From a candidate division FCPU426 bacterium (GTDB lineage: Bacteria; Oederibacteriota; JAAXVQ01; JAUVAV01): a stretch of 60,165 bases of DNA. The DNA lies in contig JAUVAV010000017.1 of NCBI GenBank assembly GCA_030591525.1, positions 1 through 60,165 on the forward strand. Direction: 5' to 3'. Position numbers and translations under genes: made by a program. Below, piece by piece: positions 49,600-52,873 of this stretch (position 1 is its first letter; each line of letters opens with the position of its first letter). The notes below the pieces were generated by a model that saw only the letters and a program-made list of their open reading frames with translations, had not been told where the DNA came from and did no database searches.

Positions 49600-50166
49600 A
49601 TGCATAGAGTAAAGCAGTTTTGGAATCGTATGATTTTTCGTGAAGAAGTGGACCCGGAAACCGTATTTGAGAATCGGCTTTCCGGTACGGAAATCAAGGA
49701 TGGCTACCTTAATTTATCCAACATGGATATACCGCTCAACTATATTAAAGATGAAATGATTTCCGTAGTAATGATCGATGTTGACGGCAAAACCGAAGAA
49801 CCGGTCATTTTCCGGTGCCATCAGCGTCAGGCGCCGGGCAAAAAAGGGGTGGTTTTTAAGCGCCAACGTTTCTGGCCGGTGGGTTTTGGGCTCAAAGAAT
49901 GGTTTAAGCAGCAGGAAATTTTGGCTGGAGATTTTATCCTCATGGCGGTTGCCTTCAAGAATCCCTATATGATTTTTCGCGCTTTTCGTCCCAAGACCAT
50001 GCTTATATTAAATGATCGCCGGGCTTCCTTGCGCCGGGATCTCGAGCGGCGTTTTGAGGAGCGCCGGCGCACCCTGCTGCATACCAGCTTGGAACGCCGA
50101 AAAAAAGAGCGCCGGAGCACGGAGCGCCGCAACCTTGAACGCCGGCTGAAGGACCGGTTGGATTAA
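49600..50166 (+). CDS. Unknown protein with arginine/glutamate-rich repetitive C terminus
   Basis: A 188-residue protein. Residues ~1-135 are a compact domain without a recognised family (NMDIPLNYIKDEMISVVMID...GLKEWFKQQEILAGDFILMA). The last ~50 residues are a highly charged helix of repeated E-R-R units: RRDLERRFEERRRTL, then LERRKKERRSTERRNLERR. The repeat is also visible in the DNA as recurring GAGCGCCG/GAACGCCG words, which points to expansion by slippage. A strong AGCAAGGAG site precedes the ATG. It is followed 72 bases later by the archaemetzincin-like gene, with an extra AAGGAGG in between. Nucleic-acid or lipid binding by the basic tail is possible. Confidence 0.65.
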   Translation: MHRVKQFWNRMIFREEVDPETVFENRLSGTEIKDGYLNLSNMDIPLNYIKDEMISVVMIDVDGKTEEPVIFRCHQRQAPGKKGVVFKRQRFWPVGFGLKEWFKQQEILAGDFILMAVAFKNPYMIFRAFRPKTMLILNDRRASLRRDLERRFEERRRTLLHTSLERRKKERRSTERRNLERRLKDRLD

Positions 50167-50238
50167 GGAGGATTACAGGTTGAAATCTGCATTACGGAAG
50201 AATCAGCACCTAAAGGCTGATCAAGGAGGAGTTTAGTG

Positions 50239-51048
50239 ATGGAAAGATCGAGGGAACAAAGAAGAGAGATTTTACTGGTGCCGATCGGCCGCGTACTGGT
50301 GGAAATTTTAGAGGAAATCGCCGTCGCCTTGCGAAAAGCGTATCGGTTTCACGTGCGGATTGGGCGTTCCGAAGAGCCGGATAATGAAATGTATTCCGAC
50401 CAACGGCGGCAGTATAACGCCGCCAGTTTGCTTAACTTGCTGGCCGGACGCCGGCGGGATAATTTGGCCGCGGTCCTGGGCGTGGTAGAAGGCGATATGT
50501 TTGCCGGCGATAAAAGTTTTGTGTTCGGGATAAACCTTTCCGGCCAAAGAACCGGGGTTATCGCTTTGGCACGTTTGCGGGACGAATTCTACAAAAAAAG
50601 AAGTCAGCGGGAACTTTTTTTGCGGCGGGCGGTAACCGAGGCGATTTGTCAGGTGGGACTGGCAGTGGGAATACCTCCGTGTTCACAGAAAAAGTGCGTG
50701 CTTTTAACGACCTCCACGCTCTGGCGTATGGATGAAAAGGGACAGTCTTTTTGCAAGTTTTGTCAGGAGCGGATGGAGCTAAAGCTTCATCCGGGTCGTG
50801 CCGCTGCTCCTGAATCTGCGCCGATCGGGATGGAGACTGCCGGCCAGGGACCGGAAGGCGAAGCCTTGGTAGCTCCGCAAATGGAAGAACATAAAACCCG
50901 GCCCGAACGGGAGGATGAGTCCCAGCTCTCGGCGGAAATTATTGAACCGGAGGGGCCCCCTTCCGCCGAAGAGGCCGCTTTGCATACTCAAAACGAAGAG
51001 GCCGATGAACCGCTGGTGGCGGATGCGTTAAAACAGGAGGAAGTTTAG
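50239..51048 (+). CDS. Archaemetzincin-like protein lacking the HExxHxxGxxH protease motif
   Basis: A 269-residue protein. LLVPIGRVLVEILEEIAVAL, RRQYNAASLLNLLAG, NLAAVLGVVEGDMFAGDK and SFVFGINL track the archaemetzincin (AmzA) fold in order. Where the zinc motif should be, residues 136-148 read ICQVGLAVGIPPC. Against HExxHxxGxxHC this gives Cys for His1, Gln for the catalytic Glu, Leu for His2, Gly144 kept, Pro for His3, and the trailing Cys kept. The second zinc site is intact: C148, C153 and C172-KF-C175. So the scaffold persists without the protease centre. An acidic ~85-residue tail of low complexity follows. GTG 50236 is an alternative start. It overlaps nothing, and pgmB starts at the next base. 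Confidence 0.7.
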   Translation: MERSREQRREILLVPIGRVLVEILEEIAVALRKAYRFHVRIGRSEEPDNEMYSDQRRQYNAASLLNLLAGRRRDNLAAVLGVVEGDMFAGDKSFVFGINLSGQRTGVIALARLRDEFYKKRSQRELFLRRAVTEAICQVGLAVGIPPCSQKKCVLLTTSTLWRMDEKGQSFCKFCQERMELKLHPGRAAAPESAPIGMETAGQGPEGEALVAPQMEEHKTRPEREDESQLSAEIIEPEGPPSAEEAALHTQNEEADEPLVADALKQEEV

Positions 51049-51729
51049 TTGTCGGAAAGCAAGCAAGGAGTAATTTTTGATCTGGACGGAGTGATTGTCG
51101 ATACCGCGGTTTTTCATTATCAAGCCTGGAAAAAACTGGCGGATGAACTGGGGATTTCCTTCGATGAACCGGCCAATGAAAAACTGCGGGGAATCCCGCG
51201 CCGGGAATCTTTGTTGGCGCTTATGGGTTTCAACCCCGGGGAAGAAAAGATCCGCGAGTATATGGATCGCAAGAATGTATACTACCTCGAGATGGTCAAG
51301 ACGATAAAAAGCGGAGAAATGCTTCCCGGAGTGGGAAACCTGCTGGCGGAACTTAAGTCCCAAGGTTATAAACTGGCTTTGGCTTCTTCCTCGAAAAACG
51401 CCCGCCTGGTACTGGAAAAGCTCGGCATAACTCCGGTTTTTGAAGCCATTGTAGACGGCAATGAAACTACTAAAGGAAAACCGGATCCGGAACTTTTTCT
51501 TAAAGCTGCGCTCAAACTCGATGTTTTGCCGTCTGATTGCCTGGTGGTTGAGGACGCGGAGTCCGGTATCGCGGCCGGCATCGCAGCTGGCATGCACACT
51601 ATCGGCGTGGGTAACCCGCAGGCTCTGGCACGCGCGGATTGTATTGTGTCCCGCACGGCGCAGATAGACAGCGCGATGGTGCGGGAGTTTCTGTTGGGGG
51701 ATTCCAAATCCGGACCTGATGCCGGCTGA
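51049..51729 (+). CDS. pgmB: Beta-phosphoglucomutase (HAD superfamily)
   Basis: A 226-residue HAD enzyme. FDLDGVIVDTA carries the nucleophile Asp11 and general acid Asp13. FHYQAWKKLADELGI and LRGIPRRESL are the cap-domain features of beta-phosphoglucomutases, ASSSKNA is motif II and VVEDAESGIAAGIAAGM motif IV. It converts beta-glucose-1-phosphate to glucose-6-phosphate, linking maltose or trehalose phosphorolysis to glycolysis. The start is TTG 51049 behind GGAGGAAG. It overlaps the glycosyltransferase gene by 11 bases. The glucan phosphorylase at the window start makes alpha- rather than beta-G1P, so the substrate source lies elsewhere. Confidence 0.87.
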   Translation: MSESKQGVIFDLDGVIVDTAVFHYQAWKKLADELGISFDEPANEKLRGIPRRESLLALMGFNPGEEKIREYMDRKNVYYLEMVKTIKSGEMLPGVGNLLAELKSQGYKLALASSSKNARLVLEKLGITPVFEAIVDGNETTKGKPDPELFLKAALKLDVLPSDCLVVEDAESGIAAGIAAGMHTIGVGNPQALARADCIVSRTAQIDSAMVREFLLGDSKSGPDAG

Positions 51730-52873
51730 ATCTATTCGAAATCTCCAGGTTATTTCCTCTCCCGGGGTGGGGGGGCGGGAAATAGATGTTCCGGTGCTGG
51801 CGCGCAAACTAATTTCCCGGGGGCATCCCACCTGGGTTATGTGCCGGCCGGATACTCTCGTAGCACGACTTGTCCAGGCCTGGAACCTGCCTTCCGAGCC
51901 CACGCATATGCGGGGCTACCTGGATCCCCTTAATATTTTAGCTTTGGCCCGGTGGTTGAAGCGAAATAAGATAGAAATTATCCATGCTCATTGGTCGCGG
52001 GATCTTTCTAATCTGATTCTCGCTTCGGGCCTGGCCGGCAATATCCCCATTGTACTGACCAAGCATGTATATGCGACGGAGAACAAGCATGATCTCTTTC
52101 ACGCCTGGGTATATCGGCATACGAACCTAGTCATCGCCATCTCCGATTTAGTGGCCGAAAATGTGCATCAAACGCTCCGCCTGCCCCGGGAAAAAATTCT
52201 GACCATCTATAACGGTATTGAATTGAACCAGCAATGGAATCCGGGGTTAACCGGAGATTCCGACCTGCGGGCGAAATTTAAAGTACCGGCGGGGAATCCG
52301 ATACTAGGTTATGTCGGACGATTAAACCGCGGCAAGCGGCCGGATTTGATTATGGAGGCTTTTGCCCGCTTATCCGGGAGATTTGCGGACTGGCATTTCG
52401 TGCTGGCCGGAAAGGCGGTAGGGCGGAGCGAGGAACATTACGCCGAAGGTTTAAAACAAAAGATCCGTGATCTCGGTTTGACGGAGCGAGTACACTTTAT
52501 CGGTTATCAAACGGATATGCCGGAGGTAATGCATACCTTTAATATCCTGGCGTGTGCTTCGGAATTTGAATCTCTGGGCATGGTGATGGTGGAAGCCATG
52601 GCCATGCAACGACCGGTAGTGGGTCCTGACTCGGGAGGTGTTCCGGAAATAATTGAACCCGGTAAAAACGGAGAAATATTTCGCTCCGGCGACATTGCGG
52701 ATCTGACAGAAAAGCTGGCCGGACTTATGGCGGATCCGGACCGGTGCGGGAAAATGGGAGGCCTCGGCCGGGAAATCGCGAAACGTAAATTCAATCTTGA
52801 TTTAATGGCGGAACAAGTGGCCGGGGTTTTTCAAAAGGTGCTGAACATGAGGGGGAAAAAATCCGGGCGATGA
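51719..52873 (+). CDS. GT4-family glycosyltransferase
   Basis: A 384-residue GT-B enzyme of family GT4. The N lobe has SSPGVGGREIDVPVLARKLISRGH, a typical glycine-rich start, and IEIIHAHWSRD. The C lobe has GYVGRLNRGKRPDLIMEAFARL and the nucleotide-sugar motif EFESLGMVMVEAMAMQRPVV (the E-x7-E signature), followed by SGGVPEIIEPG. It transfers a sugar to a lipid or polysaccharide acceptor at the cytoplasmic face. Sugar and acceptor are unknown. It is coupled to pgmB by an 11-base overlap. Confidence 0.87.
   Translation: MPAESIRNLQVISSPGVGGREIDVPVLARKLISRGHPTWVMCRPDTLVARLVQAWNLPSEPTHMRGYLDPLNILALARWLKRNKIEIIHAHWSRDLSNLILASGLAGNIPIVLTKHVYATENKHDLFHAWVYRHTNLVIAISDLVAENVHQTLRLPREKILTIYNGIELNQQWNPGLTGDSDLRAKFKVPAGNPILGYVGRLNRGKRPDLIMEAFARLSGRFADWHFVLAGKAVGRSEEHYAEGLKQKIRDLGLTERVHFIGYQTDMPEVMHTFNILACASEFESLGMVMVEAMAMQRPVVGPDSGGVPEIIEPGKNGEIFRSGDIADLTEKLAGLMADPDRCGKMGGLGREIAKRKFNLDLMAEQVAGVFQKVLNMRGKKSGR

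Follow-up and report, generated by a model that had tools for sequence, protein, structure and literature searches.

In the window, that is, the whole stretch of 60,165 nucleotides analysed here, the gene for a pseudo-archaemetzincin (P0001) lies between the gene for a basic protein (hereafter the 49600 protein) and the genes for a HAD hydrolase and a GT4 glycosyltransferase. The features of the locus are as follows:

49600-50166, forward strand: gene for an order-specific basic protein of 188 aa, the candidate partner
50223-50231, forward strand: Shine-Dalgarno sequence AAGGAGGAG, read from the sequence, 7 nt 5′ of the pseudo-archaemetzincin ATG
50239-51048, forward strand: pseudo-archaemetzincin gene, ATG start, TAG stop, 269 aa
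50257-50793, forward strand: archaemetzincin-fold domain, residues 7-185 (hhalign, residues 1-185; Pfam, residues 46-180)
50647-50682, forward strand: substituted active-site motif CQVGLAVGIPPC, residues 137-148; the canonical motif is HExxHxxGxxHC
50680-50763, forward strand: Cys4 structural-zinc site, invariant in 8/8 orthologues, with the ligands C148 (50680-50682), C153 (50695-50697), C172 (50752-50754) and C175 (50761-50763)
50794-50904, forward strand: poorly conserved linker, mean pairwise identity 26%
50905-51027, forward strand: conserved core of the acidic tail, mean pairwise identity 57%
51049-51729, forward strand: HAD hydrolase gene, between the pseudo-archaemetzincin and GT4 genes, its start abutting the pseudo-archaemetzincin stop
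51719-52873, forward strand: GT4 glycosyltransferase gene, downstream neighbour of the pseudo-archaemetzincin gene in 8/8 genomes

The first-pass annotation had described an intact reading frame with its ribosome site and an added acidic tail of 85 residues, and both descriptions hold. The frame extends from the ATG at 50239 to the stop codon that ends at 51048, with AAGGAGGAG 7 nt upstream, and the tail comprises residues 185-269, with a net charge of about -17 in the window's protein. Between the 49600 and pseudo-archaemetzincin genes there is also an open frame of 18 codons (50180-50236), with a TTG start and its own AGGAGG upstream, which stops two bases 5′ of the pseudo-archaemetzincin ATG and may be a product of chance.

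Few metzincins are as poorly understood as the archaemetzincins. The archaemetzincin fold, proposed earlier from the letters of the sequence, was borne out by profile comparisons, and by homology (PF07998, hhalign and PDB 2x7m) the protein belongs to family M54. The Pfam model PF07998 (M54) matched it with 58 bits (E = 1.6e-15), for a cut-off of 24.4 bits. The NCBIfam archaemetzincin model (NF033823) gave 116.6 bits (E = 1.1e-33), which does not reach its curated cut-off of 145, and the archaemetzincins of the PDB were matched at E values between 1e-15 and 2e-8 (2x7m, 1.1e-15). When a profile of the eight orthologues was compared by hhalign with canonical-only bacterial archaemetzincin rows, a reference from which the pseudo-archaemetzincin itself was excluded, the match covered 185 residues (99.9%, E = 1.7e-32). 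AlphaFold2, run on the single sequence only, gave a pLDDT of 42. The window's protein resembles the archaemetzincins (MEROPS M54, PF07998, NF033823; AfAmzA, 3zvs; MkAmzA, 2x7m) in fold, as judged by the profiles, in the YxxxRxQY region and in the Cys4 zinc site, the spacing of which is identical. Unlike them, it has other residues in place of the Met-turn Met, the catalytic Glu and the three zinc-binding His, carries the added acidic tail and scores below the NCBIfam cut-off.

The canonical HExxHxxGxxH has become CQxxLxxGxxP in the window's protein, which removes the three zinc His and the catalytic Glu, and the Met-turn Met is likewise replaced, by Leu155. The earlier statement that residues on the side of the Met-turn had been retained is correct for the four cysteines, C148, C153, C172 and C175, which keep the canonical spacing C-x4-C-x18-C-x2-C, but does not extend to the Met itself. 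In a comparison with 12 canonical bacterial archaemetzincins, 20 of the 34 near-invariant columns were kept and 14 were lost. The lost columns include the whole of the active site, with its five columns (H, E, H, H and the Met-turn M; hypergeometric p = 0.007), whereas the four Cys were all retained. The loss of the zinc His and of the catalytic Glu, first noticed in this one protein, was found again in every orthologue, none of the eight having any of the four residues of an active protease (HExxHxxGxxH with its catalytic Glu; 0/4). The catalytic Glu is replaced by Gln in 8/8 orthologues, Q138 being invariant, and the three His positions are occupied by C/C/F/Y/F/Y/F/F, L/L/M/Q/L/M/Q/L and P/P/P/P/A/P/E/E, respectively. 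The second metal site, CxxxxC-(18)-CxxC, is present at residues 148/153/172/175 in all eight, and the same four Cys are the zinc ligands of a plain structural site in solved and active archaemetzincins (PMC3427221). As judged from these residues, the status of pseudoprotease is well supported and the protein would lack metal-dependent proteolysis.

Each of the eight genomes sampled from the window's order has one such gene, and together these genomes represent two families and six genera. Another genome of the window's genus is a MAG that was deposited under the name Candidatus Firestonebacteria. Among the other 37 genomes of the phylum, an M54 gene was found in one only, where it has the canonical HELGH; the assembly of that genome is incomplete, and the contig with the gene is short. 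The dN/dS ratio between two congeners, calculated by the NG86 method, was 0.174 for the pseudo-archaemetzincin gene and thus no higher than for its neighbours, the 49600 gene (0.255) and the GT4 gene (0.219). Mean identity among the orthologues was 66% in the domain, 26% in the linker and 57% in the acidic-tail core, where dN was 0.09 against a dS of 0.35. The alignment of the orthologues gave for this core the consensus EDE[ST]-(x)n-EPExP-AE-A-H-(x)n-EEPL-AD, in which EDE, PE, AE, A, H and EPL are invariant. The net charge of the tail ranges from -10 to -22 across the eight genomes, and a profile of the tail had the pseudo-archaemetzincin as its sole match in each genome of the order. The possibility of a lone degenerate case is refuted by the presence of the substituted motif in all eight sampled genomes with a dN/dS of 0.17, and the proposal of a pseudo-protease that is maintained rather than decaying was confirmed on the same grounds. 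The conclusion from these findings is that the order keeps the pseudo-archaemetzincin under purifying selection, domain and tail alike.

The 49600 protein consists of a conserved N-terminal domain (residues 1-136) and a tail, of net charge +8 to +13, in which eight Arg pairs are invariant and recur mostly at intervals of five residues. It had no significant match in Pfam, NCBIfam, PHROGs or the PDB. A two-row model of its N-terminal domain reached a pLDDT of 50, and a Foldseek search with this low-confidence model yielded nothing of significance, the lowest E value being 0.08, in the PDB. The third match was the B3 DNA-binding domain of AtVAL1 (E = 0.12), and the order of strands and helices in the model is B3-like. 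A B3-like DNA-binding fold for this domain is only a lead.

The 49600 protein had been put forward as a possible partner on account of its opposite charge, with co-occurrence as a check. The co-occurrence turned out to be exact, since the two proteins are found in the identical 8 of the 45 genomes of the phylum, which within one order amounts to a single phylogenetic event. The opposite charge of the acidic and the Arg-rich tails was conserved in all genomes measured, which taken alone is a weak sign of binding. The 49600 gene lies upstream at the pseudo-archaemetzincin locus in seven of the eight genomes, and in the eighth (G005) the two genes are near the ends of different contigs. The arrangement of the pair speaks less clearly for a partnership, given that in four or more of the eight genomes one or two genes lie between them. 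A half-length TauE/SafE gene, absent from the window, intervenes in five relatives (L018:7074-7433, L019:3336-3719, L020:5892-6332, L021:11197-11631 and L023:7172-7597), and in G004 a carbon-starvation-type permease-like gene does so in addition, so the adjacency is loose. The GT4 gene, which apart from the HAD gene always comes next downstream, is the tighter neighbour, and in most genomes it is located near the end of the pseudo-archaemetzincin gene or slightly overlaps it; a HAD gene is found at this position in the window's genus only. Further, the 49600 protein was not found in another phylum rich in M54 genes, which argues against a general partner of such proteins. Viral contigs were scanned for extra rows and none were found.

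The closest term of comparison is CarG of Myxococcus, which carries HQxxHxxExxHC, has no protease activity, contains two zinc atoms and binds the protein CarD and not DNA (PMC8156234; PMC4374960). The CarG literature places this non-proteolytic form in one suborder of myxobacteria only (PMC9304148), and CarG was the only characterised non-proteolytic bacterial relative in the literature found. Both CarG (Myxococcus xanthus; NF033824, Myxo_non_zincin) and the window's protein are bacterial archaemetzincin derivatives of non-proteolytic type, with the Glu changed to Gln and the Cys4 retained, with domains of about equal size and with a gene for a basic-tailed protein nearby. Of HQxxHxxExxHC, however, the window's protein has retained the Gln and lost the His, whereas in CarG, which binds two zinc atoms, all three His are still in place. 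The acidic tail of the window's protein has no counterpart described for CarG in the literature found. The score of the window's protein with NF033824 was 75.5 for a cut-off of 250, and its scores are closer to the general archaemetzincin model. The partner of CarG, CarD, is missing too: neither CarD nor CdnL was found in the window's genome, where the sole CarD_TRCF_RID domain belongs to an ORF of Mfd length (1159 aa), and in the rest of the order the RID domain is likewise confined to an ORF of Mfd length (a cut fragment in G004, no match in G007). A CarD-CarG partnership is therefore ruled out, the mechanism of CarG is not literally transferable, and the protein is not a member of the CarG group. 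By analogy, it may work like CarG with a different partner.

Protease-dead archaemetzincins are not confined to this order. An M54-type gene was present in 61 of 384 sampled genomes and HExxH was retained in most of them, but forms that are protease-dead and show the Cys4 pattern were found in several further lineages, including REIALLLGLSLC (L160) and a group with SSxxFxxGIxRC (L156, L167, L169 and L170). The proteins of this group and L172, which come from several families, are protease-dead, mostly with SSxxFxxGIxRC, and have kept the Cys4; their N-terminal region is longer. In the M54-rich phylum, 121 of 133 genomes had an M54 gene, and many copies, chosen partly by score and thus implying no frequency, were HQ-type or had lost the His. 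The forms of that phylum (L102-L117) and those of L167, L169, L170, L172 and L156 share with the window's protein the loss of most or all active-site His, the retention of the Cys4 and the conservation within their own lineages. They lie, however, on separate branches of the tree, and the acidic tail is absent from L102-L117. In trees calculated without the motif columns, from the later of which a mis-trimmed row (L004) was left out, the window's order formed one clade (support 99) apart from the other protease-dead forms. A single clade of His-lost proteins was rejected (p-AU 1e-44; 1e-7 in an earlier set that pooled all degenerate rows), with groups that were defined by motif after the sequences had been seen. 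The tree and the AU test thus speak against an origin shared with the other protease-dead archaemetzincins and indicate that inactivation has recurred. Long branches qualify this rejection and, together with uneven sampling, limit the exact count of losses.

A further observation concerns the neighbourhood of the degenerate archaemetzincins (HQ-type or His lost, with Cys4) in L102, L103, L104, L107, L108 and L110-L114. In most of these loci the gene adjoins that of an MrfA/Hrq1-like helicase of about 758 aa, with a DEAD-box and an MZB zinc domain, and deoC is often found on the opposite side. It is possible that the degenerate archaemetzincin and the MrfA-like helicase form a functional pair.

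Because the catalytic residues have been lost and the structural zinc site has been kept throughout the order, a binding or regulatory role of the pseudo-archaemetzincin, rather than an enzymatic one, is most likely. The Cys4 of the C-terminal subdomain very probably still binds a structural zinc, as the same four Cys do in solved archaemetzincins, and would hold the domain together. The former substrate cleft and the conserved acidic tail would most likely serve as protein-binding surfaces, and the acidic tail may contact the arginine-rich tail of the 49600 protein. The protein would then most likely be an adaptor or regulator acting on its partner, as CarG acts on CarD, which binds DNA and RNA polymerase. 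Co-occurrence and charge point to the 49600 protein as the best candidate for this partner, and adjacency points to the GT4 enzyme. Taken as a whole, the proposal of a protease-dead archaemetzincin maintained by the order as a CarG-like adaptor or regulator that acts by binding another protein, with the 49600 protein as the best candidate, has in our judgement an even chance of being correct.

The constant downstream position of the GT4 gene, close or overlapping in most genomes and separated only by the HAD gene in the window's genus, would also fit a pseudoprotease that regulates or scaffolds this glycosyltransferase, with a role in the synthesis of envelope glycans or glycolipids and not in nucleic-acid transactions. 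This is unlikely, considering that enzymes of the ubiquitous GT4 type do not require a partner of this kind, that the 49600 protein, by contrast, is order-specific, and that operon neighbours often have just transcription in common. The four Cys, which do not vary even though the former catalytic positions do, might instead constitute a redox- or zinc-responsive switch that changes the binding partner. We consider this quite improbable, because the zinc site formed by the Cys4 in active archaemetzincins is simply a structural one (PMC3427221), so that its retention is expected for the stability of the fold, and because the neighbour genes include none related to sensing.

The invariance of Q138 in 8/8 orthologues, although the His positions drift, raises in turn the question of whether the old cleft has acquired a new active site, around Gln138 for instance, so that the protein would have remained an enzyme. 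The former ligand positions (C/F/Y, L/M/Q and P/A/E) conserve no nucleophile or set of metal ligands, and the non-proteolytic CarG also has the change from Glu to Gln, which makes a new enzyme very improbable. As for a decaying protease relic that has stayed open by chance, the free variation of the active-site positions between genera is what could be cited in its favour. The frame is nevertheless intact in 8/8 genomes, dN/dS is about 0.17, the Cys4 and Q138 are invariant and the tail motifs are conserved, and on this evidence decay can be discarded with hardly any reservation.

A change of the CarG type has here been fixed across another bacterial order and has been taken further, with the loss of all zinc His. 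The order-wide fixation, together with the independent cases in other phyla, suggests that the scaffold with its Cys4 has been repeatedly reused as a binding module. More tentatively, Cys4-only protease-dead archaemetzincins may represent a recurrent and unrecognised class of bacterial adaptors with several origins in phyla unrelated to each other, in which the window's order would have evolved its own CarD/CarG-like regulatory module of two proteins, the acidic-tailed pseudo-archaemetzincin and an unrelated basic partner, the order-specific Arg-rich protein; we regard this wider view as possible, if rather doubtful. The conserved sets of neighbours (the basic protein, the GT4 enzyme and the MrfA-like helicase) provide handles on what the scaffold binds, and annotation by homology alone could mislabel such proteins as zinc-dependent proteases.
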